Made by a program: the position numbers and the translations under genes. A stretch of DNA of 64,000 nucleotides, from contig NZ_MWQN01000001.1 of assembly GCF_002024165.1 (NCBI RefSeq), positions 62,001-126,000 of the forward strand, read 5' to 3'. The notes below the pieces were generated by a model, which saw nothing but the letters and a program-made list of their open reading frames with translations, ran no database searches and was not told the origin of the DNA. Source of the stretch: Embleya scabrispora (GTDB lineage: Bacteria > Actinomycetota > Actinomycetes > Streptomycetales > Streptomycetaceae). Of the stretch, positions 578-23,644 are shown one piece after another (the stretch's first letter is position 1; each line of letters starts with the position of its first letter).

Positions 578-1438
578 TCACAACAGCGTGCGCACCGACC
601 ACAGTTCGGGGAAGAACCGGTGCTCGTTGATGGTGCGCAGCCACTCCAGGCCGGTGGTGCCCCCGGTGCCCGACTTGCCGCCGAGCATGCGTTCCACCAC
701 CAGCAGGTGGGTGGAGCGCCAGACCGAGAAGCGGAACGAGACGTCGCTCAGCGCCTCGGCGAGGCGGTGCTCCACGGGTCGGCCCGCCGGGTCGAGGTAG
801 ATCTCCAACCAGGCCTGCTCCACCAGCGGGTGCGGCTCGTGACGTCGTGTCACGTCCCGTTCCAGGAGTTCCGCGGGCAGCTCCGCGCCCTGTCGGGCCA
901 GGTATCGAATCGCCTCGTCGTACACGCTCGGCGCCCGCAACTCGGCCCGGAGCATGGGGTATCGCTCCAGTTCGGCCTTCCAGGCCCGGACCGTGTCCGG
1001 GTCCTTGTTGCCCATCGTGAACTCGAGTGCGCGGTACATGAACGACTGGGTGCCGGATGCCTCGCCCAGGATGTCGCGGAACTCCAGGAACTCGTCGGGG
1101 GCCATCGCGCTGAGCACTTCCCAGGACGTCAGCAGCGCCTGTTGGGACCGGGTCGCTCGTTGCAGATGCTCGCAGGCGACGGAGATCTCGTCCTGCCGGA
1201 TCGCGGTCCGGGCCTGGTCCAGTTCGATGTGGATGGTGCGGAACAGGATCTCCTTGACGTGGCTGATCAGGATGAAGGTCAGCTCGCACGGCGAATCGGT
1301 GAGCGGTCGGGCCAGTTCGTGCAGCTCGTCCATGCGCGCGTAGGACACGTACGGGGCGGGCCCGCCCCGGTCGGCACCCGCGCCGAATGGGCAGCGCGCG
1401 GGGGGCGGGACGGTGTCGGCGGCCGACTGGTCCCTCAT
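578..1438 (-). CDS. Tryptophan 2,3-dioxygenase
   Basis: This 286-residue protein matches heme-dependent tryptophan 2,3-dioxygenase, which opens the indole ring of L-tryptophan to N-formylkynurenine. Family hallmarks are present: the region with 'LLTSWEVLSAM', 'EFLEFRDILG' and 'SGTQSFMYR' in the middle, and near residue 244 'RSTHLLVVERMLG', whose His is the proximal heme ligand. Length is normal for the family. The ATG at 1438 overlaps the TGA of the upstream amidohydrolase gene (1435-1437), so the two are translationally coupled. With formamidase (12546) and kynureninase (22409) elsewhere in the cluster it completes the tryptophan-to-anthranilate route. Because two tryptophan halogenases are in the same cluster, the real substrate is probably a chlorinated tryptophan (inference). 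Confidence 0.93.
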   Translation of the reverse strand: MRDQSAADTVPPPARCPFGAGADRGGPAPYVSYARMDELHELARPLTDSPCELTFILISHVKEILFRTIHIELDQARTAIRQDEISVACEHLQRATRSQQALLTSWEVLSAMAPDEFLEFRDILGEASGTQSFMYRALEFTMGNKDPDTVRAWKAELERYPMLRAELRAPSVYDEAIRYLARQGAELPAELLERDVTRRHEPHPLVEQAWLEIYLDPAGRPVEHRLAEALSDVSFRFSVWRSTHLLVVERMLGGKSGTGGTTGLEWLRTINEHRFFPELWSVRTLL

Positions 1439-2991
1439 CGAAGCCTCCTCGTGGGGTGTGCGCCGCGAGCGCGGCGCAGTCGGGGGTTGTCGTCCAGAAG
1501 TGGGCGCAGCACCTTCTCGTCGATGCCCAACCGGCGGGCGGAGAAGGAGTGCAACGCGTCGAGGTAGTCCTCCAGGAGCTGCCGCTCGTCCAGCAGTTCG
1601 GCCTGCCCGGCGCGGACCAGGACGCGGCCGGCCACGATGACGGTGTCGACGTCGATGGAGCCGCCCAGGTGCAGGAACGCCTCCAGGGGGCGGGGGTTGA
1701 GCACGTAGCGCCAGTCGTCGGTGGACACCAGCACCAGGTCGGCTCGTTTGCCCGTCTCCAGGCTGCCGATCTCGTCGTCCCAGCGCAGCCCGCGCGCCGG
1801 TAGCCGGGTGGCCATGGCCAGCACGTCGGTGGGCGGCAGGAAGCTCTGGTCGGCCGAGAGTTCGTTGTGCGCCTGCCAGGCCGCGCGCATGTTCTCCGCC
1901 ATGCCGCCGAGCGGGTAGACGACGCCGTCGGTGGACACCGACACGTCCAGACCGGCGCGGATCAGTTCGGTGATCAGCCGGGTCTCGGTCAGCGCGGATT
2001 CGCCGGTGCTGCCGTACTTGGCGGGCGAGTGGCTGATGTGCACGCGGTTGTCGATCAGCAGGGACCGCTCGTACTCGTCGGCGAACGCACAGTGCACCGC
2101 CATCAACCGGTCGTCGAGCAGGCCGAGTTCGTGCAGGCGGCGCAGCGGTGTGGTGTCGAAGCACGCGCGCGTCGCCCGGTCCTCGTGCCGCAGCGCCCCC
2201 ACGTGGGTGGCGAAGGTCGTGTCGTATCGCTTGGTCAACTCGGCCAGCCCGCGCCCGAGTTCGTCAGACATGTTGCCCGGGTACACGGCCGTGGGCCGGC
2301 CGCGCAGCAGGCCGCTGCGGTCCTGGGCACAGCGGCGCAGCACGTCCTCCAGCGGGCCCAGTACGGCTTCCGGCTCACGGGTGCGTCGAAAGGCGTTCTG
2401 CTCGGGGACGGCGACTCCGTCGGTGGCCCAGGTGCCGAGTACGCAGCGCAGTCCGATCCGCAGTGCGGCGTCGGCGAGCGAGTGCGGCAGCGTGAACGAT
2501 CCGACGTCGGCGATGGTGGTGGTGCCGGATCGCAGTTGGGTCCACAGCGAGTAGGCGGCGATCGCCTCGGCCTCGTCGGGGGCGAGTTGCCCGGCGAGGT
2601 CGTGGAACGAGTCGAACATGGTGGAGATCCGGGCCATGTCTCCGCCGCAGGCCATGAATCCGGGTTCGTCGGCCCGGTCGTCGGCGGACCGCAGCGCGCC
2701 CTTGAACGGGATGCGCATCGCGTACATTTCGTGCCAGTGCGCGTTGACGAAGCCGGGCAGCACCATCATCGAGCGCGCGTCGACGGTGCGCAGGGCGGCT
2801 CGCACGGCCGGCTCGCAGGCGGCGACCGCCTCGTCCACGTCGGCGGCGGCGCCGACCGCGACGATCGTGTCGCCGACGACGAGCACCGACCCCGGGTCGT
2901 ACACCCGTGCGTCGGCGGCCGCGCTGTAGACCACGCCGTCCCGGATCAGCAGCCCGGTGGGCGCGGGGGCGTTCGCGCTCGCGCCGGTCAT
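1435..2991 (-). CDS. Amidohydrolase-superfamily metal hydrolase (AtzA/TrzA-like)
   Basis: This 518-residue cyclic amidohydrolase-type protein has the two-part beta-sandwich and TIM-barrel arrangement. It begins with 'LLIRDGVVYSA' and ends with 'GSLETGKRADLVLVSTDDW'. Metal and catalytic ligands appear intact: 'NAHWH' (the HxH motif), 'ATHVGA', 'MAVHC' and 'VSTDG' with the metal-binding Asp. The family includes chlorohydrolases, deaminases and amide hydrolases, so an active hydrolytic enzyme is expected. Its start ATG (2991) overlaps the stop of the carrier-protein gene, and its own stop overlaps the start of the tryptophan dioxygenase gene. Its step in the pathway is not obvious: possible roles are deamination, dechlorination or removal of an N-protecting group. 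No substrate can be assigned from sequence. Confidence 0.8.
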   Translation of the reverse strand: MTGASANAPAPTGLLIRDGVVYSAAADARVYDPGSVLVVGDTIVAVGAAADVDEAVAACEPAVRAALRTVDARSMMVLPGFVNAHWHEMYAMRIPFKGALRSADDRADEPGFMACGGDMARISTMFDSFHDLAGQLAPDEAEAIAAYSLWTQLRSGTTTIADVGSFTLPHSLADAALRIGLRCVLGTWATDGVAVPEQNAFRRTREPEAVLGPLEDVLRRCAQDRSGLLRGRPTAVYPGNMSDELGRGLAELTKRYDTTFATHVGALRHEDRATRACFDTTPLRRLHELGLLDDRLMAVHCAFADEYERSLLIDNRVHISHSPAKYGSTGESALTETRLITELIRAGLDVSVSTDGVVYPLGGMAENMRAAWQAHNELSADQSFLPPTDVLAMATRLPARGLRWDDEIGSLETGKRADLVLVSTDDWRYVLNPRPLEAFLHLGGSIDVDTVIVAGRVLVRAGQAELLDERQLLEDYLDALHSFSARRLGIDEKVLRPLLDDNPRLRRARGAHPTRRLR

Positions 2992-3305
2992 CGCCCGGCC
3001 TCGCGGTCCGCGGGGTGGGTGTCCTCGGTGGCGGCGCGTTGGGCGGCGTCGATCCGTTGCCACCAGGCGTCGAGTGTGGGTCGGGCGGCCAGGTCCTGGA
3101 ACGCGACGCGCAGGCCGAGCCGACGCCATTGGTTGACCAGTCGCATCATCTCCAGTGATCCGAGTCCGAGCAGGACCAGGTTCTGGTCGCCTCGGAGGTT
3201 GTCGGGGTCGGTGCCGATCACGGCGGCGACGGCTTCCCGCAGTCGCGGTGGGGTCAGTGAGGCGGCCGCCGCGTCGGCGGCATCCGGGTCGGTGCGCGGT
3301 TCCAT
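2988..3305 (-). CDS. Aryl carrier protein
   Basis: A 105-residue stand-alone carrier protein. The phosphopantetheine site is Ser50 in 'LGLGSLEMMRL', followed by 'VNQWRRLGLRVAFQDLAARPTLDAWW', the helix II-III pattern of aryl carrier proteins such as the EntB and VibB ArCP domains. It has GS where most have DS. The gene lies between the aryl-AMP ligase (3389) and the amidohydrolase (overlap at 2988-2991). In the family, such proteins hold an aryl acid as a thioester after transfer from a partner AMP ligase. Here the likely cargo is the anthranilate-type acid made by this cluster. The first 20 or so residues are low-complexity Ala/Asp and look like a linker. The carrier-protein identity is secure and the cargo is inferred. 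Confidence 0.88.
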   Translation of the reverse strand: MEPRTDPDAADAAAASLTPPRLREAVAAVIGTDPDNLRGDQNLVLLGLGSLEMMRLVNQWRRLGLRVAFQDLAARPTLDAWWQRIDAAQRAATEDTHPADREAGR

Positions 3306-3388
3306 CCTCGGTTTCCTTCCTGCTGGGTGACCCCGGGACCGGCCCGGAGGGTTTCGGGTCCGGTCCCGGGTGTCCGTCGCCGATGTGG

Positions 3389-4981
3389 TCAGGAGAACCG
3401 GGCGACCAGTGCCTTCTTGTCGACCTTGCCCAGGGGGGTGCGCGGCAGGTCGGCGAGGATCTCCAGGCGATCCGGGAGCTTGTAGTCGGCCAGTCCCTCG
3501 TCCTGCAGTGCCGTGCGCAGGTCGAGCAGTTCGGGCGCGTGGCCGTGCGCGACCACGCACGCGCAGGTGCGCTCGCCGAGGATCGGGTCGGGGACCCCGA
3601 TCAGGGCGACCTGGTGAACCCCCGGCAGGGCGAGCAGGTGTTCCTCGATCTCGGGTGCGGAGATCTTGTCGCCGCCGCGGATGACCACGTCCTTGATCCG
3701 GCCCTCGATCACCAGGTGACCGTCGGGGGTGCGGGTGACCACGTCCCCGGTGCGGTAGAAGCCGTCCTCGGTGAAGGCCCGCTCGTTGTGTTCGGGGGCG
3801 CGGTAGTAGCCGCGCAGTGTGTACGGCCCGCGCACGAGCATCTCGCCGGCCGCGCCGGGGGCCACCGGATCGCCGTGCTCGTCGACGATCCGCACCTCGT
3901 CCGCCGGGGACAGGGGCAGGCCCTGGGTGGTGTACGCGGTCTCCTCGTCGTCGTCTTCGCGGACGTAGGACAACATGCCTTCGGCCATTCCGAAGACCTG
4001 TTGCAGTCGGCAGCCGAACGCGGGCGGGATGCGGCGGGCCGTCTCCGCCGGCAGTTTGGCCCCGCCGACCTGGACGAAGCGCAGACTCGACAGGTCGTGT
4101 GCGCTCCACTCCACCTCTTCCAGCCACAGATGCGCGATGGCGGGCACCAGCGAGGTGAAGGTCACCCGTTCCCGGGCGATCAGCGCGAAACACTCGTCGG
4201 CGCCGGCGTCCGCGGCCAGTACGACCGTGCCGCCGGCGGAGAGGGTGCCGAGTACGCCGGGACATCCCCAGGGGAAGTTGAACTCGATCGGGAGCACCAC
4301 GAGGTACACGTCCTGCCGGGTGAGTCGGCACAGTTCGCTGCCGGCGCGCACCTGGTAGGCGTAGTCGTCGTGGGTGCGCGGGATCAGTTTGGGCAGCGCG
4401 GTGGTTCCGCCGGAGAGCAGGAAGAAGGCGACGTCGGCCGGGTCCACCCGGACCGGTTCGAGGCCACGCTCGGATGTGCCCGGGTCGGTGAAGTCGTCCG
4501 GGCCGCCCACGACCAGGATCGTGCGCAGGGTGGGTACGTCGGCCTGGATCCGTTTGGCCAGCGCCGGGTAGTCGTAGCCGACCCGGCCGTCGGGCACGAT
4601 GTAGGCGACCGCCTCGGAGATGCGGCACAGGTGCCGGATCTCGTTGCCGCGATGCGCGGCGAGGGCGAACACCGGGTGGGCGCCGAGTCGAAACAGCGCG
4701 AAACATACGGCGACGAACTCGGGGATGTTCGGCAGGTGCACCACGACCCGGTCGCCCGCGGTGATGCCTTCGGCGTTCAGCCGGATCGCCACCCGGTCGG
4801 CCCACAGGTCGAGTTCGCGGTAGCTCAGCCGGCGTTCCCGGTGCACCAGTGCGACGCGGTCGTCGTATCGGCGCGCCCAGTCGTGCAGGAGGTCGCCCAG
4901 GGTGCGGCCCTGCCAGTATCCCGATTCGCGGTAGCGCTCGGCCCATTCGTCGGGCCAGGGGGTGCAGCCGGCGAGCATCAT
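3389..4981 (-). CDS. Aryl acid-AMP ligase (DhbE/salicylate-ligase type)
   Basis: This 530-residue adenylate-forming enzyme belongs to the family that activates 2,3-dihydroxybenzoate, salicylate and related acids and loads an aryl carrier protein. The P-loop-like 'LLSGGTTALPKLI' is at about 189-200 and 'YRTGDVV' with 'GRIKDVVIRGG' is in the C-terminal half. The terminal Lys motif reads 'TPLGKVDKK'. By my count the specificity positions of DhbE numbering fall on Asn235, Cys240 and Leu337. Dihydroxybenzoate ligases have Ser240 and Val337, while salicylate ligases have Cys and Leu, so an aryl acid without a 3-hydroxyl is predicted. That fits an (chloro)anthranilate. Two ATGs (4981 and 4978) both overlap the KASIII stop. 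The carrier-protein gene follows 83 bases downstream. Confidence 0.9.
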   Translation of the reverse strand: MMLAGCTPWPDEWAERYRESGYWQGRTLGDLLHDWARRYDDRVALVHRERRLSYRELDLWADRVAIRLNAEGITAGDRVVVHLPNIPEFVAVCFALFRLGAHPVFALAAHRGNEIRHLCRISEAVAYIVPDGRVGYDYPALAKRIQADVPTLRTILVVGGPDDFTDPGTSERGLEPVRVDPADVAFFLLSGGTTALPKLIPRTHDDYAYQVRAGSELCRLTRQDVYLVVLPIEFNFPWGCPGVLGTLSAGGTVVLAADAGADECFALIARERVTFTSLVPAIAHLWLEEVEWSAHDLSSLRFVQVGGAKLPAETARRIPPAFGCRLQQVFGMAEGMLSYVREDDDEETAYTTQGLPLSPADEVRIVDEHGDPVAPGAAGEMLVRGPYTLRGYYRAPEHNERAFTEDGFYRTGDVVTRTPDGHLVIEGRIKDVVIRGGDKISAPEIEEHLLALPGVHQVALIGVPDPILGERTCACVVAHGHAPELLDLRTALQDEGLADYKLPDRLEILADLPRTPLGKVDKKALVARFS

Positions 4982-6015
4982 CGGCCTCCGGCCGCGTCCG
5001 CGGTGATCCGCACGATCGCGCAGGCCACCTCGAAGCCCGGGGTGCCGCCGAGCAGGAGCACGTGGTCGCCGGTGCGAACCGCGCCGGTGGTCCACAGGTG
5101 TTCGAGCCCCGCGACGTGGTCGGAGGGGCCGGCGTGCCCGGTGCGCCGGACGAACTCCCAGGTGCCGCGCGCCTCGTCGATCCCGATCGGGTCCAGGAAG
5201 GTGTCCCGCAGCGCGTCTTGGGCGAAGCTGACGTGGGCGACCCGGGTGATGTCGTCCATGGTGAGTTCGGCCTCGGCCACCGTCTCGTGCACCACCTCGG
5301 CCACCAGGTCGCCGAGGTGCCCCATCGGCGGCGGGCTGCCGGCGGCCCACTGCTGGGCCCAGTAGGTGCGCCGGCGTTCCAGGTCGAGCGGTTCGCCGCG
5401 GGTGATGCCCGGCGGGAACATCTGCTCGCCGCCGCGGTGCAGTTCCTCCATGCGCGGGATGGACCGGGCGCCGGTGGCCACGAGTCGGGCGAATCCGGGT
5501 CGGGTGGACAACACGATCGCGCCGGCCCCGTCGGCGAGTACGAACAGTTTGGAGACCGTCCAGCGGTCGACCGTGGGGGTGTTGAAGTTGTCCGCGGTGG
5601 TCAGCAGGACGGCGGTCCGGCTCGGGTCGGCCAGCAGGTGGTTGGCGCCCAGTTCCAGCGATTCGATGATGCCCAGGCAACCGTGCCGGACCTCGATCGC
5701 CGAGATCGGCTGGTCGACGGTGTTGCGCACGATGTAGTGCGGCGCGGACCACACGTCCGGTCCCTGGTAGTGCACGGTGCTGTGGAACAGCTTGCAGATC
5801 TCGGCGGCCTCGTGGTCGGCCTGCTTGAGCGCCGCGTTCGCGGCGCGGATCGCCATGTCGGGGGCGGGCAGGTCGCCGGCGTCGCCGATCGACAGCAGCC
5901 CGCTGCTCTCGCGTTCGGCCGCGGGGTAGCGGCCGGCCGCGACCGCGTCCTCGGTGCTCACCCGGTCCGGCAGGTGGGTGCCGATACCGGCCAGGTGGAT
6001 TCCGTCGAATCTCAT
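4978..6015 (-). CDS. KASIII-like acyltransferase / condensing enzyme
   Basis: A 345-residue thiolase-fold protein resembling the FabH (KASIII) group. The nucleophilic Cys is at 113 in 'EVRHGCLGIIESL'. A His at 261 ('RVAHVSF') matches the FabH catalytic His. The usual Asn of the 'GNTS' loop is replaced, reading 'RTGHAGPSDH' with His294. Loss of that Asn is typical of KASIII homologues that transfer acyl groups to hydroxyl or amine acceptors instead of doing a decarboxylative Claisen reaction, such as CerJ. The gene sits between the DUF6875-like gene and the aryl-AMP ligase, with its stop overlapping the ligase start. The simplest model is that it takes the aroyl group from the carrier protein. 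A PqsD-like quinolone-forming condensation is an alternative. Confidence 0.82.
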   Translation of the reverse strand: MRFDGIHLAGIGTHLPDRVSTEDAVAAGRYPAAERESSGLLSIGDAGDLPAPDMAIRAANAALKQADHEAAEICKLFHSTVHYQGPDVWSAPHYIVRNTVDQPISAIEVRHGCLGIIESLELGANHLLADPSRTAVLLTTADNFNTPTVDRWTVSKLFVLADGAGAIVLSTRPGFARLVATGARSIPRMEELHRGGEQMFPPGITRGEPLDLERRRTYWAQQWAAGSPPPMGHLGDLVAEVVHETVAEAELTMDDITRVAHVSFAQDALRDTFLDPIGIDEARGTWEFVRRTGHAGPSDHVAGLEHLWTTGAVRTGDHVLLLGGTPGFEVACAIVRITADAAGGR

Positions 6016-6037
6016 GGTTGCTCTCCTCGGCGCCGGA

Positions 6038-6703
6038 TTATCGGGACCGGTCGGCACGACCGGACAGGACGGGGACGGCGTGCTCGTCCGCCGCGCGCAC
6101 GGCGGATGCGTACAGGCCGGCGAACCGCGGGTCGATCCGGGCGCCGCTGTCGTAGTAACGCGCGTACCGTTCGCGGTAGTTGGAGAACCAGCCGGGGTGG
6201 TCGTGCAGGAAGAGGATGTCGTGGAAGGCCATGTTCCTGATCGCGATCATCGGCCAGGGGGCCCGGTTGACGGGGAACAGCGGGTTGCGCGCCGCCGGGG
6301 CCCGGCAGTCCGGGTGGAACTGGCCGAGCATCAAACCCTCGGCCACCGCCCGGTCCTTGGTCGCCCGATGGCCCTCGTCGATCAGCCACCAGCCCTCCTC
6401 GGGCAGGTCGGTGACCAGCACGACGAGCGCGTGCAGTTGGGGATTGCGCGCCTTCCAGTCGATGGACCGGAACATCCGGGTGGCGTCCTCGATCATCCGC
6501 ACCATCCGGGGCAGGTGCGGTGGGCCCTCCCAGCGATGGCCCACCGCGATCAGCGAATCGGCGCGCAACGAGGGTTCGACGAAGGGGCAGACCGGGCCGT
6601 CGCGGCCGAGTTCGGGGTGCGGTTGGGCGATGTAGTCGCCGAGCCAGGTGTGCAACTCCCGGTCGTGCTCGGCGTCCAGGGTGACGAACGGATATTTCCT
6701 CAT
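6038..6703 (-). CDS. Conserved hypothetical protein, DUF6875-like
   Basis: A 221-residue soluble protein without signal peptide or membrane helix. Conserved-looking blocks are 'CPFVEPSLRADSLI', 'FHPDCRAPAARNPLFP' and 'PMIAIRNMAFHDILFLHDHP'. I recall this pattern from an uncharacterised actinomycete family (DUF6875), but I am relying on memory for that name. Several conserved Cys and His (CPF, FHPDC, FHD, HDHP) could bind a metal or form an active site. Its ATG (6703) overlaps the stop of the preceding unknown gene by four bases, and the KASIII gene follows 22 bases after its stop, so it is part of the same translationally coupled operon. A role in handling or ligating the aroyl group is possible but unsupported. 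Confidence 0.65.
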   Translation of the reverse strand: MRKYPFVTLDAEHDRELHTWLGDYIAQPHPELGRDGPVCPFVEPSLRADSLIAVGHRWEGPPHLPRMVRMIEDATRMFRSIDWKARNPQLHALVVLVTDLPEEGWWLIDEGHRATKDRAVAEGLMLGQFHPDCRAPAARNPLFPVNRAPWPMIAIRNMAFHDILFLHDHPGWFSNYRERYARYYDSGARIDPRFAGLYASAVRAADEHAVPVLSGRADRSR

Positions 6704-7293
6704 CGGATGCCCTCGTCCCGGATCACGGAGCAGTTCGTGGCGCGAGGCGGCCAGTACGCGCCGGGCGCGGAACACTCCAGGGTGGCGGTTTGGCTGAGCG
6801 GAATCGGGTCCGCGGTGCTCGCGGAGAGCGTGCGGCGGATCTGCCGGGGGGCGCCGCCGGTGCGGATGCCGCTCTCCCACGAGGGACGCGGGTACGCCGC
6901 TGCCTCCTGACGGGCGAGTTCGGCGGCGGCGGGGTCGGCGCCCGCGTGTGGTCGGCCCCGGGGCTCGGCCCAGCGCCACGTCTGGGCGTCGAGCGCGGCC
7001 CAGGTGCGCACACCCTCGGCGCCGAAGCACTGGGCGAAGTAGCCCCGGATGAGCGTCAACGCGCGCAGGCACACGCAGCGCCAACCCTCGGTGTCGGTCT
7101 CGTCGGGCTCGGGTCGGCCGTCGTCCAGTCGGGACAGGATCGCCGTCCACGCGTCGTAGCCGCCGGCGCCCAGTTGTTCGAGCGCGTTGGCCATGCTCAC
7201 TTCGGCGGCGAAGAGTCGATGCCGCCAGACCGTCGCGTCGTCGCCGTCGGTGTCGGGACCGCCGTTGCGGGGTCCCTCTGCGGGAGAGGTCAC
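6700..7293 (-). CDS. Hypothetical protein in halogenated-anthranilate operon
   Basis: I do not recognise this 197-residue protein. The N-terminal half is helical ('WRHRLFAAEVSMANALEQLG', 'TEGWRCVCLRALTLIRGYFAQCFG') and contains 'WAALDAQTWRWAEPRGRPHAG'. The C-terminal third is rich in Pro, Ser and Arg and looks unstructured, ending 'GAYWPPRATNCSVIRDEGIR'. It starts with GTG at 7293, one base after the TGA of the DAHP synthase gene (7295-7297), and its stop overlaps the ATG of the DUF6875-like gene. This tight coupling argues that it is a real gene with a job in the same pathway. No signal peptide or transmembrane segment is visible. Confidence 0.6.
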   Translation of the reverse strand: MTSPAEGPRNGGPDTDGDDATVWRHRLFAAEVSMANALEQLGAGGYDAWTAILSRLDDGRPEPDETDTEGWRCVCLRALTLIRGYFAQCFGAEGVRTWAALDAQTWRWAEPRGRPHAGADPAAAELARQEAAAYPRPSWESGIRTGGAPRQIRRTLSASTADPIPLSQTATLECSAPGAYWPPRATNCSVIRDEGIR

Positions 7294-7294
7294 A

Positions 7295-8368
7295 TCAGAC
7301 CCCTTCCGTCGCCAGCGCGCGCGGACGTGCCGGCATCGGACGCGGCGGCGGCACCGCCAGGACCCGACCCGTCGCGGTCAGCAACCGGCCGAGATCGGCG
7401 GTCAGTTCGGCCAGTTCCTTGGGATGCAGCGCCTGCCCCGCGTCGCACAGCGCGGTGGCCGCGTCGGGGTGGATGTCGATCATGATGCCGTCGGCGCCGA
7501 CCGCGGCGGCGGCCAGTGCGAGCGGCCGGACCAGGTCGGTGCGCCCGGCCGCGTGGCTGGGGTCGACGATCACCGGCAGGTGGCTGATCCGTCGCACCGC
7601 GGCGACGGCGGACAGGTCGAGGGTGAAGCGGGTCGCCGGCTCGAACGTGCGGATGCCGCGTTCGCACAACACCACGTCGGGGTTGCCCTCGGACAGGATG
7701 TACTCGGCCGCGAGCAGCCATTCCTCGATCGTGGCCGCCATCCCGCGTTTGAGCAGCACCGGCCGGCCGCTGCGCCCGATCGCGCGCAGCAGGGTCGCGT
7801 TGCTCATGTTCCGGGTGCCGACCTGGAGGATGTCCGCGACCTCCAGGACGTCGTCCAGGTCGGCGACGTCGAGCACCTCGGTGATGATCGGCAACCCGGT
7901 GACCTCGCGCTGTTCGGCGAGCAGGCGCAGTCCGGCGCGTCCCAGGCCCTGGAAGCTGTACGGCGAGGTCCGGGGCTTGTAGGCACCACCGCGCAGGATG
8001 GCGCCCCCGGCGAGCGCGACGCCGTGCGCGGAGTCGCCCATCTGGGCCCGGTTCTCCACCGCGCACGGGCCCGCGACGACCACGAACGCCGGGCCGCCGA
8101 TCGGCACTCCGGCCACGTCGACGACGGTGTCGGCGCGTTGGTAGGCGCGTCCGGTGAAGCGCAATGCGTCCTCGGTGTCGACCACCGATTCCACACCGGG
8201 CAACGGTCGGATGCGTTCGGCCAGGCCCCGCGGAGCGGTCCCGGTCGAGATCAGGTGGGCGCGGCCGTGGCATCGGCTGCGCAGTACCTGCATGTCCTCC
8301 GCACGAAGCGCCGCAGCCACGTCTTCGGCAAGCTCCGGAGCGGAAGTCTGATCCATCACCACGATCAT
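7295..8368 (-). CDS. aroF: 3-deoxy-7-phosphoheptulonate synthase (type I-beta DAHP synthase)
   Basis: A 357-residue DAHP synthase, catalysing PEP plus erythrose 4-phosphate to DAHP, the first step of the shikimate pathway. Motifs of the type I-beta subfamily are clear: 'VVAGPCAVEN', 'GGAYKPRTSPYSFQG', 'LLKRGMAATIEEW' and 'VIVDPSHAAGRTDL'. About 85 N-terminal residues form the small regulatory domain found in this subfamily. It is the first gene of the leftward operon. An in-cluster extra copy normally raises the supply of aromatic precursor, here tryptophan for the halogenases and the kynurenine route. Start choices are ATG 8368 and ATG 8356. The first has a GGGGGA element eight bases upstream. 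Confidence 0.92.
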   Translation of the reverse strand: MIVVMDQTSAPELAEDVAAALRAEDMQVLRSRCHGRAHLISTGTAPRGLAERIRPLPGVESVVDTEDALRFTGRAYQRADTVVDVAGVPIGGPAFVVVAGPCAVENRAQMGDSAHGVALAGGAILRGGAYKPRTSPYSFQGLGRAGLRLLAEQREVTGLPIITEVLDVADLDDVLEVADILQVGTRNMSNATLLRAIGRSGRPVLLKRGMAATIEEWLLAAEYILSEGNPDVVLCERGIRTFEPATRFTLDLSAVAAVRRISHLPVIVDPSHAAGRTDLVRPLALAAAAVGADGIMIDIHPDAATALCDAGQALHPKELAELTADLGRLLTATGRVLAVPPPRPMPARPRALATEGV

Positions 8369-9636: not shown

Positions 9637-10647
9637 GTGGATTCCACCAGGCTCGACCGGCTGGAACGGCAATTGGTACATGCGCTCCAGATCGACGGGC
9701 GCGCGCCTTTGAGTCGAGTGGCCGCGGTCCTGGACGTATCCGATCAGACCGTGGCCCGCCGCTATCGCAAGCTGCATAACTCCGGTGCCATGCGGGTGCT
9801 GGGCCTGCCCGACGTCAGCCGCTTCGGTCAGGTCGAGTGGCTGGTCCGGATCCAGTGCAGCCCCGACGCGGCGGCCGGCGTCGCCGCCGCCCTGGCCCGG
9901 CGCGACGACACCTCCTGGGTCAGCCTGACCGCCGGCGGCACCGAGATCGTCTGCGTCACCCGCAGCGGGCCGCGTACCGACGGCGATTCGCTGCTCCTGC
10001 AGAAGTTACCGCGCACTCCACGCGTGGTCGGGGTCACCGCGCACAACATCCTGCACGCGTTCTCCGGCGGCCCGACCGGCTGGCACGGCAAGGCCGACTC
10101 GCTGACCCCCGACCAGATCCGCGAACTCGACGCGGGGCTGGGCGATCCCCCCACGCGGCGCGAGCGACTGGAGATGTTCGAGGGCGACGGCAAACTCCTG
10201 GCCATGCTCGCCCTGGACGGTCGGGCCGGCTACGCCAAACTGGCCGAGGTGACCGGCTGGTCCGAATCGACCGCCAAGCGCCGGTTGGAGCGGCTGCGCC
10301 GGGCCCGGGCGCTGTTCTTCGACGTGGAGATCGATTCGGCGCTGCTCGGCTACGAGGCCGAGATGATGTTGTGGCTCTCCGTGCCCCCGGCGGCCCTGGT
10401 CGCGGTCGGTGAGGCGCTGGCCGAGCATCACGAGGTCGCCTTCGCCGCCGCCGTCACCGGCTCGGCGAATCTGGTCGCGATGGTCGCCTGCCACGACACC
10501 GACGACTTCTACCACTACCTGACCACGCGGATCGCCACCTTGACCCAGGTGGTGGCGATGGAGACGGCTCCGGTCATCCGCTCGGTCAAGCGCGCCGGCA
10601 GCGTACCCAAGTCGTTGTCCGCCGGGAGCGGTCCGCCCCGGCGCTGA
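9637..10647 (+). CDS. Lrp/AsnC-family regulator with duplicated domains
   Basis: A 336-residue regulator with two Lrp-type helix-turn-helix segments, 'LSRVAAVLDVSDQTVARRYRKL' near 28-48 and 'YAKLAEVTGWSESTAKRRLERL' near 200-220, each followed by a ligand-binding half. Such doubled Lrp proteins are frequent beside actinomycete exporters and biosynthetic genes and often sense amino acids. Translation starts at GTG 9637. A TTA codon at 10006-10008 (codon 124, Leu in 'LQKLPRTP') would make expression depend on the bldA tRNA if this is a Streptomyces-type organism. It is divergent from the methyltransferase gene and 224 bases upstream of the MFS exporter gene, so it probably controls one or both. 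Sensing of tryptophan, kynurenine or the product is inference. Confidence 0.85.
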   Translation: MDSTRLDRLERQLVHALQIDGRAPLSRVAAVLDVSDQTVARRYRKLHNSGAMRVLGLPDVSRFGQVEWLVRIQCSPDAAAGVAAALARRDDTSWVSLTAGGTEIVCVTRSGPRTDGDSLLLQKLPRTPRVVGVTAHNILHAFSGGPTGWHGKADSLTPDQIRELDAGLGDPPTRRERLEMFEGDGKLLAMLALDGRAGYAKLAEVTGWSESTAKRRLERLRRARALFFDVEIDSALLGYEAEMMLWLSVPPAALVAVGEALAEHHEVAFAAAVTGSANLVAMVACHDTDDFYHYLTTRIATLTQVVAMETAPVIRSVKRAGSVPKSLSAGSGPPRR

Positions 10648-10871
10648 CGGACCCCGCGCGTTCGTCGACGGTGGGACCACGCACGCCCGCGTCGGCGGTG
10701 GAACCGTCGGCCGTCTCGTCCGGCGCGTCTCGACGATTTCCCACCTCGTCGGCGGTCGTGATGTCGAAAACAAGCAATGCGGGCCCCCTGCGTGGCGCGG
10801 TCCGGCCGATCGCCACGAAGGTTTCGGTGACCGGGTTCTCGACATCGACCCCCGCCGCCGAGAGGAAACTC

Positions 10872-13486: not shown

Positions 13487-16400
13487 TCAGGCGCTGTCCT
13501 CCAGCGCCTCCCGCTCCCCCGTCTCGCGCCGGGTGGCATCGCGACACGTTCGCCTCGTGCGCCCCGGCCCGATCAACGCGGGCGCCGACGCCTCCTGTTG
13601 CCGAAACGCGGGCGGTGCGGGCAGTCTGCGCGGCGGGGCCGGCTCCGTCCTGTCCGCCTGCACCACGAACACGCATGCGCGCGAGACCGTTTCGGCGCGC
13701 CGCGGCCGGGTTGCGCCCGTCGCGCTCGACGCCGTCGAGACCGCGTGCAGGGTGTGGCAGGCACGCGCGTAGATCAGCGGGTGACCGGCACGGACGGCCG
13801 TGCCGACCGCCGCCCGGGCGTGCCACCTCGCCGGCCGGAGCAGACGCGCGTCGCGTTCCGCGAGCAGCACCAGCACCAGACCGGTCCGGGCCTCGCATTC
13901 GCCCCGCGTCGAGCCGACCCGGCGGGCCAGCCTCAGCGCGACCGTGTGATGCCGAAACGCGAGGTCGCGTTGCCCCTGCGCCCGGGCTATCTCGCCGAGC
14001 ACGTTCAAGGCGTGTGCCCGACACCGCGCGTCGCCGCCGGCACACGCCAGCCGCAGGGCCTCGCCGCCGTGCCGGGCCGCGGTGCCCAGTCCCCCGCGTT
14101 CGAGGTAGGTCCGGGCCAACACGGCCTCGATCGCGGCCTGGTCGTGGGCCGTACCGCCGGATGCCAACGCCTGGGCGAGGTAGCTGACGGCCCGCTCGGC
14201 CCGGCCCTGGTCGTGCGAGACCAGGCCCAGCCGCCACAACGTTCGGGCGATACCGGGGCCGGATTCGCCCGGCTCGACGAGGCGGGCGTCGCGCAGCGCG
14301 ACCAGCAACTCCTCGCGGGCCTCGTCCAGCCGGCCCGCCCGGTGCAACTCGGCCGCCAGATCCCGTCGCACGCACGCCGCCGCCCGCAGTCCGCCGAGCC
14401 GGTCGGCCAGGTCGCGCGCGGTGGTCAGCACCTCGACGGCCCTCGCGCCGTGCCGCTCCACGCCGATCGCGAGCCCGAGGCCGCGCAGGGCGGCCAACCG
14501 TTGCCAGGGCTCGCTCGTCGCGATGTCGCGTTCGAGCGCCCGGGTGAAGTACAGCCGTGCCCGGGTCGAACGCCCCAGGCCCAGATGGGCGAAACCAAGC
14601 CCGATCAAGGTGGCCGCGGACCACCCGCGCCCGGCGCGTTGTTCGGCCGCCCGTGCGGCCAGGGCGCAGCGCAGCGCCTGCTCGTGGTGTCCGCCGTCGG
14701 TCAGGTAGGGACCGAGCAACGCGGCCAACTCGATCGCCGGGCATTCGGTGTCACCGGCCTCCACCAGGGCCACCAGTGTCGCCCGCTCGGCGTCGAGCCA
14801 GGCCGAGGCGGCGCGGGCCTCGGCGAAACGCGCCGGCGCGTCGCCCGATCCGGGGAGCTCCGGGAAGGTGCCCAGGCCGAGCCGGCGCACCGCCTCCCGC
14901 ACGCCCGCGAACAGCCATTCGTTCATGCGGCGCGCGGCCCGGGTCCGCTCGTCCGGGGCATCCGCGGTGCGCGACAACTCGGTGGCGTACGCGCGCGTGA
15001 GTCCGCGCAGCCGGAACCGGCCGGGGCCGCTGGGGGCGACCAGGTGGCCGGCGGCGAGCCGGTCGAGGATCTCCTGGGCCCGTCCGTCGTCGGCCAGGCC
15101 CGCCAACACCCGGACGGTGGCGGTGCCGAAATCGGGTCCGGGAGTCAGCGGCAACAGCCGATACACCCGCGCGGCCTGGGGCGAGAGCAGCGCGGCCGCG
15201 GCCCGGAAGGCGTCGCGCACGCCGGCCCGGGGGCCGTGTCCCAGGGTGAGCCGACTCAGCGGGTCCCCCTCGCGCAACCGGGCCACGTAGTCCGCGACGC
15301 GGCACCGGGGATCGGCGGCGAGCGTCGCCGCGGCGATCCGCAGGGCCAGCGGCAGGCGGTCGCACAGCCTTGCCAACTCCGCCGCGGCCTCGGGCTCCGC
15401 GGCGAGCCGGGCCCTACCCAGCACGCCTTCGAGCAGGGCGGCCGATTCGCTCTCGGTCAGTTCGTCCGACAGCGCGAACAGTCGGGCACCGCAGGACGCG
15501 CTCAGTTCCGGAAGCTCCACGCGGCTGGTCACCAGGACCGTCGAGCCCGCGGTGCCCGGCAGCAGCAGCGTGACCTGCTCGGCGCGGGTGACGTCGTCGA
15601 GGAGCAACAGCACGCGGCGGTCCGCCAGTTGGGCGCGCAGCGCGGCCGCCCGTGCCTCCAGGCCGGGCGGCACCCGGCAGGAACCGCACGCGCTCAGGAG
15701 TTCCGCCAACACCTCGGCCGGATCGCGGGGGCTGTCGTCGGTGCCGCTGAGCCGCACGTACCACTGGCCGTCCGGAAACTGTCCGCGCAACCGGTGCGCG
15801 GCCCGCAGCGCGGTCGCCGTCTTCCCCGCTCCCGGGCCGCCCGAGAGCACCACGACCGGCGACGCGGGCAGCCCGTGGTGCGGCGTGGCGGCCTCGACGA
15901 TGCATCCGAGTACCGCCTCGCGCCCCACGAAATCGCGCTCGTCCCTGGGCAGTTGGTACAGCGAGGTCCACGAGCCGCGGGTGTCGGCCGGCGCCGTGCG
16001 GTGTTTGGCGGCGGACTCGGCGGGCAGGGCCGGCGCACCGCTGAGGATCGCCCGTTGCAGACGCACCAGCCGTTCACCGGGATCGATGCCCAGTTCCTCG
16101 TTCAGCCGGTCGCGGACCTCGGCGTAGGCGGCCAGCGCCTCCGCCTGCCTGTCGCAGCGGTACAGCGTGAGGATCAGCTGGTACCAGAACCGTTCGCGGT
16201 AGGGGTGTTCGGCGGTCATCTCGCGCAGCGGGGCCAGGATCCGGTCCTGCCGGCCCAGGAAGAGGCCGACGTCGAAGTATCGTTCGGCGGCGCGCAACCG
16301 GCGTTCGGTCAGCACGGGCACCGCCTCCCGTTGCAGGGCCTCCGCGGGTACGTCGTCCAGCGCGGGGCCGCGCCACAGGGCCAGGGCGGCGGCGAGCAGA

Positions 16401-16870
16401 TCCGCCTCCTCCCGGGGCCGATCGGCCTGACGCGCCCGTTCGGCGCGCTCGACCAGGTCGTCGAAGCGGTTCAGGTCCAGCGCCGACGCGGCGATCGAGA
16501 TGCGATACCCCTCGGGCACGGTGTGGATCAGCCGTTCACCGCCCGCCCGTTCCAATGTCTGGCGCAGCCGGTTCATGTGCACGTGCAGGGCGTTGCGGCC
16601 GCTGGCCGGAGGGTTTCCCTCCCAGAGGTGGCCGAGCAGCTTCTCGACCCCCACCGTTTGTCCGGCGTGCAGCAACAGGCAGGCCAGCAGGCTGCGTTGT
16701 TTGGGCGCCCGGAGGGGAACGGACCGATGGTCGACGACCACTTCCAGGGGTCCGAGGATCAGGAAGTCCGCGCGATCGGGTGAGCCGCGGTCCGGGTCGG
16801 GCGACGTCGCACCGTCTCCGCCCCCGCGGACCGCCGGTGAGCGGTACACCGGAAAGGATGCTGTGGTCAC
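13487..16870 (-). CDS. SARP-family transcriptional activator with NB-ARC and TPR domains (AfsR-like)
   Basis: A large regulator of about 1127 residues. Domain order is an OmpR-type winged helix (about 35-130, 'LGPLEVVVDHRSVPL', 'LHVHMNRLRQTLE'), a bacterial transcriptional-activation domain (about 130-280), an NB-ARC ATPase with P-loop 'SGGPGAGKTATAL' near 345, and a long helical TPR-like C-terminal half. This is the AfsR architecture that activates antibiotic genes by direct DNA binding. I prefer GTG 16870, which has GGAG six bases upstream. An upstream TTG at 16882 would add four residues but lacks a ribosome site. A 32-base perfect palindrome sits just upstream (16890-16921). It is most likely the pathway-specific activator of the halogenase and kynurenine genes. 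Confidence 0.9.
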   Translation of the reverse strand: MTTASFPVYRSPAVRGGGDGATSPDPDRGSPDRADFLILGPLEVVVDHRSVPLRAPKQRSLLACLLLHAGQTVGVEKLLGHLWEGNPPASGRNALHVHMNRLRQTLERAGGERLIHTVPEGYRISIAASALDLNRFDDLVERAERARQADRPREEADLLAAALALWRGPALDDVPAEALQREAVPVLTERRLRAAERYFDVGLFLGRQDRILAPLREMTAEHPYRERFWYQLILTLYRCDRQAEALAAYAEVRDRLNEELGIDPGERLVRLQRAILSGAPALPAESAAKHRTAPADTRGSWTSLYQLPRDERDFVGREAVLGCIVEAATPHHGLPASPVVVLSGGPGAGKTATALRAAHRLRGQFPDGQWYVRLSGTDDSPRDPAEVLAELLSACGSCRVPPGLEARAAALRAQLADRRVLLLLDDVTRAEQVTLLLPGTAGSTVLVTSRVELPELSASCGARLFALSDELTESESAALLEGVLGRARLAAEPEAAAELARLCDRLPLALRIAAATLAADPRCRVADYVARLREGDPLSRLTLGHGPRAGVRDAFRAAAALLSPQAARVYRLLPLTPGPDFGTATVRVLAGLADDGRAQEILDRLAAGHLVAPSGPGRFRLRGLTRAYATELSRTADAPDERTRAARRMNEWLFAGVREAVRRLGLGTFPELPGSGDAPARFAEARAASAWLDAERATLVALVEAGDTECPAIELAALLGPYLTDGGHHEQALRCALAARAAEQRAGRGWSAATLIGLGFAHLGLGRSTRARLYFTRALERDIATSEPWQRLAALRGLGLAIGVERHGARAVEVLTTARDLADRLGGLRAAACVRRDLAAELHRAGRLDEAREELLVALRDARLVEPGESGPGIARTLWRLGLVSHDQGRAERAVSYLAQALASGGTAHDQAAIEAVLARTYLERGGLGTAARHGGEALRLACAGGDARCRAHALNVLGEIARAQGQRDLAFRHHTVALRLARRVGSTRGECEARTGLVLVLLAERDARLLRPARWHARAAVGTAVRAGHPLIYARACHTLHAVSTASSATGATRPRRAETVSRACVFVVQADRTEPAPPRRLPAPPAFRQQEASAPALIGPGRTRRTCRDATRRETGEREALEDSA

Positions 16871-16889
16871 TGGTTTCTCCAAGAACAGG

Positions 16890-16984: not shown

Positions 16985-20003
<3,019 letters not shown>

Positions 20004-20098: not shown

Positions 20099-20650
20099 TC
20101 AGGGCTGCCCCGGCCAGGCGGCATAGCCACGCAGGCCGTACAGCAGCGGATCGGGCAGTGAGCGATGGGCCGTGCCCAGCACTTCGCCGAAGATCACCGC
20201 GTGATCGCCGACGACGTCGTCGCGCACCACCTTGCAGTCGGCGACCCCGTGCGCGGCCTCGGCCAGATGCGGGCCGCCGGCGCCGGCGGGCAGACACCAG
20301 GGGGTGCGCGCGAACCGGTCGGGAGCGCCGGAGGCGAACAACTCGGCCGTGCTCCTGGCGTGTCCGCTCAGCAGGTTGAGCGCGAAGGTGCCGCCGGCCC
20401 GGACCGCTTCCAGCGTGGGACTGCCCTGGCGCAGGCAGACCAGGAGGGTGGGCGGCGACAGCGTCACGCAGCTGATCGAGGTGCAGGTCATGCCCCACGG
20501 GTGGTTTCCCGCGTCGAGCGTGGTGAGCACGCCGACACCGGTGGGAAAGCCGGCCATGAAGGCTCGCAGTCGGTCGGCCCGGTCGGTCGGCTCCGCGGGG
20601 TGGTCGACCCGGACGTCGTCGTGTACGTCGGCGCGGACGGAATGCGTCAC
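20099..20650 (-). CDS. NAD(P)H:flavin oxidoreductase (halogenase partner)
   Basis: A 183-residue member of the flavin reductase-like FMN-binding family. Typical segments are 'RAFMAGFPTGVGVLTTLDAGNHPWGMTCTSISCVTLSPPTLLVCLR' through the N-terminal half and 'GTFALNLLSGHARSTAELFA' after it. 'GDHAVIFGEV' is near the C-terminus. It reduces FAD with NAD(P)H and releases FADH2 for flavin-dependent halogenases. It sits between the antiporter gene and the second halogenase gene, 32 bases after the latter on the same strand, so it is probably co-transcribed with both halogenases. Translation starts at GTG 20650 with GGAG upstream. Confidence 0.9.
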   Translation of the reverse strand: MTHSVRADVHDDVRVDHPAEPTDRADRLRAFMAGFPTGVGVLTTLDAGNHPWGMTCTSISCVTLSPPTLLVCLRQGSPTLEAVRAGGTFALNLLSGHARSTAELFASGAPDRFARTPWCLPAGAGGPHLAEAAHGVADCKVVRDDVVGDHAVIFGEVLGTAHRSLPDPLLYGLRGYAAWPGQP

Positions 20651-20681
20651 GAATTACTCCAGAAGTCCCGGTCGAGCGAGG

Positions 20682-22271
20682 TCATTTACCGTGGAGTTGG
20701 CGCAGGAATTCGTACGTGGTGGGCAGCTCGGCCAGCAGGTGTCGCCGCCGGGACTCGACCTCGGCGAACAGGTTCTCGACACTTTCGATGGAGGCCGGCT
20801 TGTATTCCAGGGCGGGCAACACACGATCCGGGAGGTGGCCGAGGCCGGCAAAGATGCACCAGTAGTTGGTGTTGTTCCAGAAATTCTTGTTGTCCACTTC
20901 GGAATTGCCGTAGTACACTCGCTCGCCGGCCTGCGAGGTGTTCACCGGGAATCCGGCCCGATACAGCGAGATCTTCTCCCGGACGTCGTCGCCGAGCGGA
21001 AGCTCCTTGTTGGCCCGCCAAAACTCCGTGTCCGTGCGCGGCGAGAAGTAGAAGTGCGTCTGGATGAAGTCGCGGGTGAAGTCGAACATGCTCTCCACCT
21101 CGCGATTGAAGTGGTCGACCAGGGTCGGGTCGAAGCGCTTGTCCGGAAAGTGCTTGGCGAGTTGGTGCACCGCGGAGTAGATGAAGTAGATGCCGGTCGA
21201 CTCGAGCGGTTCGACGAAGCACGAGGCGAGTCCGATGCTCACCACGTTGCGCACCCAGGCCCGACGGTTGCGGCCGACCCGGAAGCGTACGTGGTTGAAC
21301 GGGGTGCGGTCGGGGTTCAGACCCCACAGGTCGCAGAACTCGCGCGTGGCCTCGTCCTGGCCGGTGAACTTGCTCGAGTAGACGTAGCCGGTGCCGAAGC
21401 GGGTCAGCATCGGGATCTTCCAGGTCCAGCCGGAACTCATCGCGATCGCCGAGGTGAACGGCTCGACGCCGTTGGCGGCGTCGTCGTGCGGGACCGCGGT
21501 CGCCACGGCGCTGTCGCACAGCAGTTGGTCGGACATGTCCAGGAACGGCTCTTCCATCGCCTGGTTGATCAACAGGCCGCGGAAGCCCGAGCAGTCCACG
21601 AACAGGTCGCCTTCGAGGAGTCGGCCCTCCTTCGTGCGCAGCGCGGTGATGTGGCCCCGCTCGTCGAGGACCGCCTCGGTCATCTCGTCCTGGACGTGCC
21701 GCACACCCTGCTTCTCGGTGGCGAACCGGCGCAGGAAGTCCGCGACCAGGTTGGCGTCGAAGTGCCAGGCGTAGCCGGTGGCCTGGCTGCCGTCGCGGTA
21801 GCGCGGGCCCTTCTTGGCGTCGAGCACCTCGGCTTCGGCGAAACACGCGTAGTCGAAGGGCACGTCGGTCTCGCCCCGCAGGGTGCGCAGGTGCCAGTAG
21901 TGCGAGAGCGGGATCCCGTCGTGCTCGGGGAGGTTGGCGAAGTGATGGTAGAAGTGGTCGACGCCGCCGTCGAGCGCGCGTGGTTGTGCCGCGCCGTTGC
22001 CGGGGGTGCGCCAGTTGACGAACCGGATGCCCGCCTTGAAGCTCGCGTTGCACTCGCGCATCCATTCGTCCTCGGGAATACCGAGGTAGTCGAAGAACGC
22101 GGACTGCAGGTTCGGCACGGTGGCTTCGCCGACACCTATTCGGGGAATGGTGGGCGCCTCCAGGACCGTGATGTCCACGGCACCCTGGAGGGCCTTCCCC
22201 AGATACGAGGCGGTCATCCACCCCGCCGTCCCGCCGCCGAGAACGACCAGCCTCTTGATGCGATGGTCCAC
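20682..22271 (-). CDS. FADH2-dependent tryptophan halogenase, Thal/RebH-like (predicted tryptophan 6-halogenase)
   Basis: A 529-residue halogenase with FAD motif '[18 protein letters not shown]', catalytic Lys79 in '[10 protein letters not shown]', signature 'GWTWKIPML' and Glu in '[14 protein letters not shown]'. The long insert and the C-terminal '[16 protein letters not shown]' mark it as the 6/7-halogenase branch. Segments such as '[21 protein letters not shown]', 'NWRTPG', '[25 protein letters not shown]' (variation of Thal) and '[19 protein letters not shown]' look closer to Thal-type 6-halogenases than to RebH. Phe replaces the usual Tyr before Lys79. Translation starts at GTG 22271 with AAGGAGAG seven bases upstream. 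Together with the PyrH-like enzyme it could give 5,6-dichlorotryptophan. Regiochemistry is inferred from remembered similarity only. Confidence 0.93.
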
Positions 22272-22290
22272 GAGTCTCTCCTTCGGCCTG

Positions 22291-22318
22291 CGGCCGCGGG
22301 GTTCGATCCCCGCGGCCG
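22291..22318. terminator. Hairpin between kynureninase and halogenase genes
   Basis: Perfect 11-base arms (22291-22301 and 22308-22318) enclose a six-base loop TTCGAT. On the coding strand it lies about 20 bases before the GTG of the Thal-like halogenase and about 90 bases after the kynureninase stop. It may terminate or attenuate transcription running in from the kynureninase gene, or stabilise the halogenase mRNA 5' end. Confidence 0.5.
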
Positions 22319-22408
22319 ACCCTGGAGAGCATCCTGGGAGACGGCTCTATATTTTTCCTATGAGCCGGCCCGGGCCGATGTGCGATCGCTCACCGACGAG
22401 GCAATTGG

Positions 22409-23644
22409 CTAACCGTAGGCGCTGGTTCGGGCGAATCGTGGATCGGTGTACTGTTTGGTTTCCGCGACCCGCCACAAGCGTTCGACGCTTTCCCGGACGT
22501 CTTGATGCGAGACATATAGCGGATGGAATCCGAAACGGAGCAGATCCGGCGGCCTACTGTCCGCGACGACGCCCTGCGGCATCAGGGCGCGAATCATCCC
22601 GTAGGCGTGTTCGTGCCGCAGCGAGACGTGCCCACCGCGTCGTTCGGCGGCACGTGGGGTGACCACCTCGAACGCCGGTTCGTCCGGTAGTTCGTCCACA
22701 CAGCGGACGAAGAACGCGGTGAGCGAGAGGCTCTTGTCGCGCAGTTGCTCGACCGTGACGTCGCGATACACGTCCAGCGCGGCGTCCAGGGCGACCAACG
22801 ACAGGATCGCGGGTGTCCCGACCACGGCCCGGGCGATGCCGGGGGCCGGCAGGTACGGGCCACCGGTGGCGAACGGGGTGACGTGTCCGAGCCAGCCGGC
22901 CAGCGGCAGGTCCAGGGCTTCGTGGTGGCGTTCGGCGACGTACACGAAGGCCGGTGAACCGGGGCCGCCGGACAGGTACTTGTAGGTACAACCCACCGCC
23001 AGGTCGACGTCGTGGCGCTCCAATTCGAGCGGCAGCACGCCCACGCCGTGACAGACGTCCCACAGGACGACCGCGCCCGCGTCGTGCGCCGCCGCGGTGA
23101 TGCCCGCGATGTCCCACAGCTCGCCGGTGCGGTAGTCCACCACCGGGTACGCGGCCACCGCCACGTCGCGGCCGTTTCGGGCCAACCACCCGGCCGCCTC
23201 CCCCGCGGGCACCTCGACCACCCGCAGGCCCAGCAGCCTGGCCGCCGACTCGGCCATGTAGCGGTCGGTGGGAAAGTGTCGCGGATCGGTCAACAGCATC
23301 TGCCGGCCCGGCCGCAGGCGGGCCGCCCCGATCAGCGTGTTGAACAACTGCACCGAGGTGGAGTCGCCCACCGCGACCTGTCCCGGGCCGACCCCGAGCA
23401 GGGCGCCGATCCGATCCCCCACCCGGGTGGGCAGTTCCATCCAGTCCACCCAGGAGCGCACCAGGTCCTCGCGCCATTGTCGATGGATGGTCTCGTGCAC
23501 CGCGGGGGCGACCGAGGTCGGCAGCGGCCCGAGCGAGTTTCCGTCCAGGTAGATCAACCCCGGCGGCAGCGCGAACCGCTCCCGGACGCCGGCCAACACG
23601 TCTTTTGCGTCCAAGCGTTCAGCGTCGGTGCGCGTCGTGGACAT
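22409..23644 (-). CDS. kynU: Kynureninase
   Basis: A 411-residue PLP enzyme of fold type I. 'LIYLDGNSLGPLP' at the N-terminus and the PLP-lysine motif 'GCTYKYLSGGPGSPAFVYV' (Lys222) are diagnostic of kynureninase. 'LWDVCHGVGVLPLEL' carries the PLP-binding Asp. It cleaves kynurenine to anthranilate and alanine, or 3-hydroxykynurenine to 3-hydroxyanthranilate. No kynurenine 3-monooxygenase is visible in the window, so anthranilate or a chloro-anthranilate is the expected product. Its ATG (23644) overlaps the 3' end of the second SARP gene by 26 bases, which suggests co-transcription with the regulator. The Cys in 'DVCHG' replaces the usual Ala. Confidence 0.93.
   Translation of the reverse strand: MSTTRTDAERLDAKDVLAGVRERFALPPGLIYLDGNSLGPLPTSVAPAVHETIHRQWREDLVRSWVDWMELPTRVGDRIGALLGVGPGQVAVGDSTSVQLFNTLIGAARLRPGRQMLLTDPRHFPTDRYMAESAARLLGLRVVEVPAGEAAGWLARNGRDVAVAAYPVVDYRTGELWDIAGITAAAHDAGAVVLWDVCHGVGVLPLELERHDVDLAVGCTYKYLSGGPGSPAFVYVAERHHEALDLPLAGWLGHVTPFATGGPYLPAPGIARAVVGTPAILSLVALDAALDVYRDVTVEQLRDKSLSLTAFFVRCVDELPDEPAFEVVTPRAAERRGGHVSLRHEHAYGMIRALMPQGVVADSRPPDLLRFGFHPLYVSHQDVRESVERLWRVAETKQYTDPRFARTSAYG

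Follow-up and report, generated by a model that had tools for sequence, protein, structure and literature searches.

We analyzed 64,000 nucleotides of Embleya scabrispora DNA (hereafter the window) through protein profile matches (Pfam, TIGR/NF) and matches to the Protein Data Bank (PDB), and find that its left part belongs to the mycemycin (mym) biosynthetic cluster, joined by one extra small open reading frame (ORF), X. It is quite likely that this cluster follows the pathway proposed below, in which the second of its two halogenases, P, acts on a salicyl ring and the end product is a benzoxazole. The broader reading that we favor, and hold to be fairly probable, is that the mycemycins have been structurally misassigned: mycemycin A would be O-methylcaboxamycin and the dichloro members chlorinated, methylated caboxamycins, P would have been redirected from tryptophan to the salicyl ring, and the tryptophan arm would combine C5 chlorination with C7 hydroxylation by a DUF6875 protein before ring opening.

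The mym gene order of Streptomyces olivaceus was published in 2018 as A, B, C, D, E, F, G, H, I, J, R1, K, L, R2, M, N, O, P, Q and R3 (PMC5867642). A tblastn search of the window proteins against the DNA of S. olivaceus NRRL B-3009 recovers 20 of 20 mym genes in identical order and orientation, with protein identities of 44-80%, and the region is therefore the Embleya mym cluster: a cluster of known kind, now in a new genus, which differs from its S. olivaceus counterpart by its host, by the addition of ORF X between H and I and by sequence divergence. Intact minus-strand frames between positions 578 and 23644 encode the tryptophan 2,3-dioxygenase, both halogenases, a flavin reductase, a kynureninase and a formamidase-like hydrolase, the gene set that an earlier note on this DNA had correctly recognized as one cluster. 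The same span also holds a NatAM-type amidohydrolase, a carrier protein, an aryl-AMP ligase, a β-ketoacyl synthase III-type (KASIII) acyltransferase, the DUF6875 protein, a 3-deoxy-D-arabino-heptulosonate 7-phosphate (DAHP) synthase, a carboxyl methyltransferase, an Na/H exchanger, an MFS pump and AsnC and SARP regulators. To the left of the window, the SibL-type methyltransferase B runs across position 1 and beyond it lies the salicylate synthase A, the MymA counterpart; salicylate is a second building block that the earlier note leaves out. The genes are as follows.

1-525 (gene -536 to 525, 3' end outside the window), minus strand: B, SibL/MymB-type C-methyltransferase, N-terminal part; 75% to the S. 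olivaceus ortholog, in the same place
578-1438, minus strand: C, tryptophan 2,3-dioxygenase (MymC); PF03301, E 1.6e-48; 65% to S. olivaceus
1435-2991, minus strand: D, NatAM-type condensing amidohydrolase (MymD), proposed benzoxazole synthase; 55.3% to NatAM 6sj0
2988-3305, minus strand: E, acyl carrier protein (MymE); PF00550, LGSLEMM motif
3389-4981, minus strand: F, salicylate/2,3-dihydroxybenzoate-AMP ligase (MymF); TIGR02275, 665 bits; top PDB matches DhbE 1md9 and salicylate-AMP ligase 5wm2
4978-6057 (start may be 6015), minus strand: G, KASIII-type acyltransferase (MymG/BomK family); top PDB matches 7vyu and ChlB3 7eqi; catalytic Cys in HGCLG
6038-6703, minus strand: H, DUF6875 protein (MymH), proposed heme-dependent tryptophan C7-hydroxylase; PF21780, E 2.2e-53
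6700-7293, minus strand: X, ORF of unassigned role between H and I; 96% in E. hyalina
7295-8293, minus strand: I, DAHP synthase (MymI); PF00793; NF006421, 413 bits
8590-9522, minus strand: J, LCM-type methyltransferase (MymJ), proposed to form the methyl ester; PF04072, E 1.7e-53; 44% to S. olivaceus
9637-10647, plus strand: R1, Lrp/AsnC regulator; 70% to S. olivaceus
10671-12407, plus strand: K, MFS exporter; PF07690; 68% to S. olivaceus
12546-13409, minus strand: L, alpha/beta hydrolase, proposed kynurenine formamidase; PF07859; HGGHW motif
13487-16882, minus strand: R2, SARP/NB-ARC/TPR regulator; PF03704
16985-18517, minus strand: M, PyrH-type tryptophan 5-halogenase by its residues; PF04820, 470 bits; top PDB match PyrH 2wet
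18435-20003, minus strand: N, Na+/H+ exchanger-type membrane protein (MymN); open frame of 522 amino acids; 58% to S. olivaceus
20099-20650, minus strand: O, flavin reductase; PF01613, E 6.8e-29
20682-22271, minus strand: P, RebH/Thal-fold halogenase, proposed for the salicylate-derived ring; PF04820, 539 bits
22409-23644, minus strand: Q, kynureninase; TIGR01814, 242 bits; 61% to S. olivaceus
23619-25874, minus strand: R3, SARP/NB-ARC regulator; PF03704; 49% to S. olivaceus

ORF X has no Pfam match and no S. olivaceus match and, among the loci compared, occurs in Embleya only. Nearly all mym genes are present in Embleya hyalina at 94-100% identity; there a match of 25 residues is all that is left of J between I and R1 (locus L110, 17301-17773) and, given this reduction, the E. 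hyalina carboxylate may be left unmethylated. A second type of mycemycin cluster, mye, is known from Streptomyces sp. FXJ1.235. The mye-type locus of S. lucensis has A, D, E, F, G, J, K, N, O, P, R1 and an R3-type regulator in common with the window but lacks B, C, H, I, L, M and Q, and the single S. lucensis dioxygenase and kynureninase genes adjoin each other elsewhere in the genome.

In the pathway that we propose, tryptophan would be chlorinated at C5 by M and hydroxylated at C7 by H (no order being implied), opened by C, deformylated by L, C-methylated by B and cut by Q to give 3-hydroxy-4-methyl-5-chloroanthranilate. In the second branch, chorismate, its supply boosted by the DAHP synthase I, would be converted to salicylate by A and loaded by F onto the carrier E. 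The 3-hydroxyl of the anthranilate would then be esterified by G with the salicyl group, the ring closed by D to a 2-(2-hydroxyphenyl)benzoxazole-4-carboxylate, the methyl ester formed by J and the salicyl ring chlorinated by P para to its hydroxyl. The predicted end product, methyl 6-chloro-2-(5-chloro-2-hydroxyphenyl)-7-methylbenzoxazole-4-carboxylate, has the formula of mycemycin C, C16H11Cl2NO4. The present analysis itself shows which genes are there, how they are ordered, the families to which they belong and their key residues. The activity of the dioxygenase on 5-chlorotryptophan is taken from the literature, as are the deletion phenotypes for the counterparts of D, G and P; what H and L do, the closure via an ester to the benzoxazole and the precise substrate of P are what we infer.

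The case for a benzoxazole starts with D, which is 55.3% identical to NatAM, the enzyme that makes the nataxazole benzoxazole from an ester. His75, His77, His253, His290, Lys315, Glu321 and Asp345, which include the zinc ligands and the catalytic residues His290, Lys315, Glu321 and Asp345, are all identical in the two proteins, with NatAM Arg87 replaced by Lys in D, and we propose on these grounds that D, an amidohydrolase of the NatAM type, forms a benzoxazole. G is similar to ChlB3-type enzymes and has their Cys motif; a Claisen-type, PqsD-like role as a quinolone former was set aside, its relatives being of the ChlB3/CerJ type. Deletion of either myeD or myeG abolishes all mycemycins (PMC5867642), and since the mye cluster has no tryptophan branch, this essentiality fits poorly with D as a formamidase. 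On the product side, the [M+H]+ ion of mycemycin A is that of O-methylcaboxamycin (m/z 270), and a parallel gene set makes O-methylcaboxamycin. Furthermore, the published carbon shifts (CDCl3) of the ester-bearing half of mycemycin A differ over nine carbons by a mean of 0.67 ppm, and at eight of them by 0.0-0.9 ppm, from those of microechmycin 6, a methyl benzoxazole-4-carboxylate reported to be almost identical to a synthetic compound. Shifts of 2-(2-hydroxyphenyl)benzoxazoles from one synthesis paper were left unused, as they seem inconsistent among that paper's own compounds. The NatAM-like D, the gene complement and the published nuclear magnetic resonance (NMR) data together suggest chlorinated benzoxazoles of the caboxamycin type, and not dibenzoxazepinones, as the structures of the mycemycins.

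Several points pull the other way. The published structures are dibenzoxazepinones, assigned by NMR without a crystal structure; the authors of the 2018 mym study assigned D as a formamidase (PMC5867642); the C-N carbon of mycemycin A is off by 2.4 ppm in the comparison above; and the Embleya end product is a prediction from the genes. The dibenzoxazepinone pathway, in which D would be an N-formylkynurenine amidohydrolase, G would form an amide and an unlinked P450 would make the diaryl ether, thus has both the published structures and the published pathway proposal behind it. We nevertheless consider it unlikely, and set this default product aside because of the match of D to NatAM with its full active site; D is, moreover, essential in mye, the cluster contains a separate formamidase-like protein, L, and no P450, and the NMR of the anthranilate half fits a benzoxazole. 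No statement of a benzoxazole revision of the mycemycins was found in the literature searched, which is incomplete, and the single paper there that mentions mycemycin together with caboxamycin treats the two as separate clusters.

For the tryptophan arm of the favored benzoxazole pathway, halogenase M shares 63% identity with PyrH, a 5-halogenase, versus 59% and 58% with SttH and Th-Hal, which are 6-halogenases. It has the PyrH residues Phe451-Glu452 and Gln160 at positions where SttH and Th-Hal have Leu-Pro and Gly160; Gln163, also present in M, is common to PyrH, SttH and Th-Hal. M therefore carries the 5-selectivity signature of PyrH and, as far as sequence can tell, is a PyrH-type tryptophan 5-halogenase. 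Chlorine placed by M on indole C5 would accordingly end up on anthranilate C5, the position matched by the chlorinated carbon of mycemycins C and D. MymC accepts 5-chlorotryptophan, and a product seen upon feeding was assigned as 5-chloroanthranilate (PMC5867642). The opening and cleavage of a halogenated tryptophan to a halogenated anthranilate, which the earlier note had read from the genes and which the evidence bears out, is thus already described for mycemycin, so that a route running beyond chlorotryptophan or 4-chlorokynurenine is not, as that note supposed, without precedent. Deformylation we assign to L, a proposed kynurenine formamidase on the strength of its family and of L-type hydrolases that adjoin dioxygenase and kynureninase genes in actinomycin-like loci.

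The mycemycin ring needs an oxygen at anthranilate C3, which corresponds to indole C7, and a kynurenine 3-monooxygenase was not identified among the cluster genes examined. DUF6875 proteins are cited as heme-containing oxidases of L-tryptophan that include C7-hydroxylases (PMC13307353). H keeps the invariant residues of PF21780 including Cys39-Pro40, a pair present in 49 of 49 sequences, and in 11 of 18 other loci its relatives lie no more than 6 kb from dioxygenase, formamidase, kynureninase or methyltransferase genes. In three of these DUF6875 loci (L201, L202 and L206), the order H-L-C-Q-B equals that of the actinomycin acnF-G-H-L-M block. Given the family reports, the kynurenine-route neighbors and the lack of a monooxygenase among the genes examined, H appears to be the best candidate for supplying the missing 3-hydroxyl, as a putative heme tryptophan C7-hydroxylase. 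Less easily accommodated is the mye-type cluster, which has no H and whose 3-hydroxyanthranilate must come from elsewhere.

DUF6875 genes directly adjoin dioxygenase, formamidase, kynureninase and SibL-type methyltransferase genes in L191 as well as in L201, L202 and L206. The genome under study has a second DUF6875 gene (L129, C5:146000-162000), beside two TauD-like dioxygenase genes and near an ORF of 2354 residues that looks like a nonribosomal peptide synthetase (NRPS), the neighbor families there having been judged by eye.

Halogenase P groups with its S. olivaceus and S. lucensis counterparts in a 100/100 clade of mym and mye enzymes apart from Thal (43-row tree), and retains the catalytic Lys79 and Glu358. 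At the five sites that we take to switch Thal C6 to RebH C7 selectivity (52, 82, 360, 469 and 470, with mutant letters taken from PDB 6ib5), P has three RebH-like residues (Ile82, Thr360 and Asn470), one Thal-like (Val52) and one that is neither (Thr469). Its top-scoring PDB entries, 7aqu and 6ib5, are Thal-derived, but in both the switch sites show RebH-type letters, for which reason we dropped a Thal-like assignment by bit score. A 6-halogenase label for P would thus be weak even if the enzyme acted on tryptophan, and of the two halogenase types in the earlier note, PyrH-like holds for M with its Phe-Glu pair, while Thal-like does not hold for P.

Residues Tyr454, Tyr455 and Glu461 presumably form the tryptophan side-chain pocket, as in the RebH and PrnA structures, with the nearly invariant Phe462 as a neighbor. 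In 78 other RebH/Thal relatives, positions 454/455/461/462 read Tyr/Tyr/Glu/Phe in 75-78 of 78 cases per site (Phe462 in 76), whereas P reads Y/Y/D/N in the window, Y/Y/E/N in S. olivaceus and L/H/G/N in S. lucensis; by these letters, the pocket is altered in the P clade and departs from the RebH/Thal pattern. In addition, S. lucensis carries P in a cluster without M, dioxygenase or kynureninase. Deletion of myeP removes mycemycin B alone and leaves mycemycin A (PMC5867642); mycemycin B has a single chlorine, on the salicylate ring, and the known dichloro mycemycins have one chlorine on each ring. Because of the altered pocket, the occurrence without a tryptophan branch and the myeP knockout, the ring that P chlorinates is most likely the salicyl ring. 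The window P does have an intact Tyr pair and a mere Glu461 to Asp exchange, a sequence compatible with tryptophan activity, and this must be set against that assignment.

Two readings would keep P on tryptophan. As a C7-selective enzyme, in keeping with its three RebH-like switch residues of five, P would together with M give 5,7-dichlorotryptophan and then 3,5-dichloroanthranilate; this is very improbable, as indole C7 (anthranilate C3) has to bear the oxygen of the final ring and H is its likely hydroxylase, and as both the myeP knockout and the distribution of P point away from tryptophan. The serial route of the earlier note, from 5,6-dichlorotryptophan to a 4,5-dichloroanthranilate starter unit, draws on the tryptophan-halogenase fold of both enzymes, the conserved Lys79/Glu358 and the best scores against Thal-derived entries, yet is scarcely credible given the clade and pocket of P, its Val52 as the sole Thal-like switch residue, its presence in S. 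lucensis, the myeP deletion that hits the salicylate-ring chlorine and the one chlorine per ring of the known products, all of which make 4,5-dichloroanthranilate unlikely as a product.

In addition, L189 and L190 (G451 C12, from another family of the same order) have a 68% homolog of M adjoining a DUF6875-like gene and, about 18 kb from it, a 64% homolog of P with O and N; another two-halogenase pathway is possible there.

The mym cluster can be set beside other known systems. In taromycin biosynthesis, the tryptophan halogenase Tar14 feeds a kynurenine-forming route that stops at 4-chlorokynurenine, within a lipopeptide. The caboxamycin cluster resembles the window in its salicylate synthase, KASIII enzyme, AMP ligase, carrier protein and amidohydrolase; the 3-hydroxyanthranilate of caboxamycin, nataxazole and A33853 comes from chorismate, whereas that of the window would come from tryptophan, with methylation and chlorination added. 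The actinomycin acn block shares with the window a hypothetical protein of about 211 amino acids, acnF, and a formamidase, dioxygenase, kynureninase and methyltransferase; the part of its gene table covered here names no halogenase, and its acid primes an NRPS (PMC6521150). AcnF is described there as an essential "hypothetical" gene, and kynurenine monooxygenase is reported as absent from the acn cluster (PMC6521150). By size and gene order, acnF would be a DUF6875 protein.

New here are the proposed reassignments of D, H and L, the evidence on P and the suggested structural revision. If correct, they would turn a named natural product family, the mycemycins, into benzoxazoles, and would give a concrete function to the "hypothetical" MymH and, via gene order, to acnF, filling the gap where kynurenine 3-monooxygenase was reported missing. 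P would likewise represent a natural retargeting of the tryptophan halogenase fold to a phenol, of use for halogenase engineering.

Elsewhere in the window, a biopterin-dependent aromatic amino acid hydroxylase (45007-45918; PF00351, 6.8e-57) is encoded about 20 kb from the cluster, the alpha subunit of a Rieske ring-hydroxylating oxygenase lies at 49354-50589, and hydantoinase B and A genes occur near ABC transport genes of the branched-chain amino acid type at 55050-63943.

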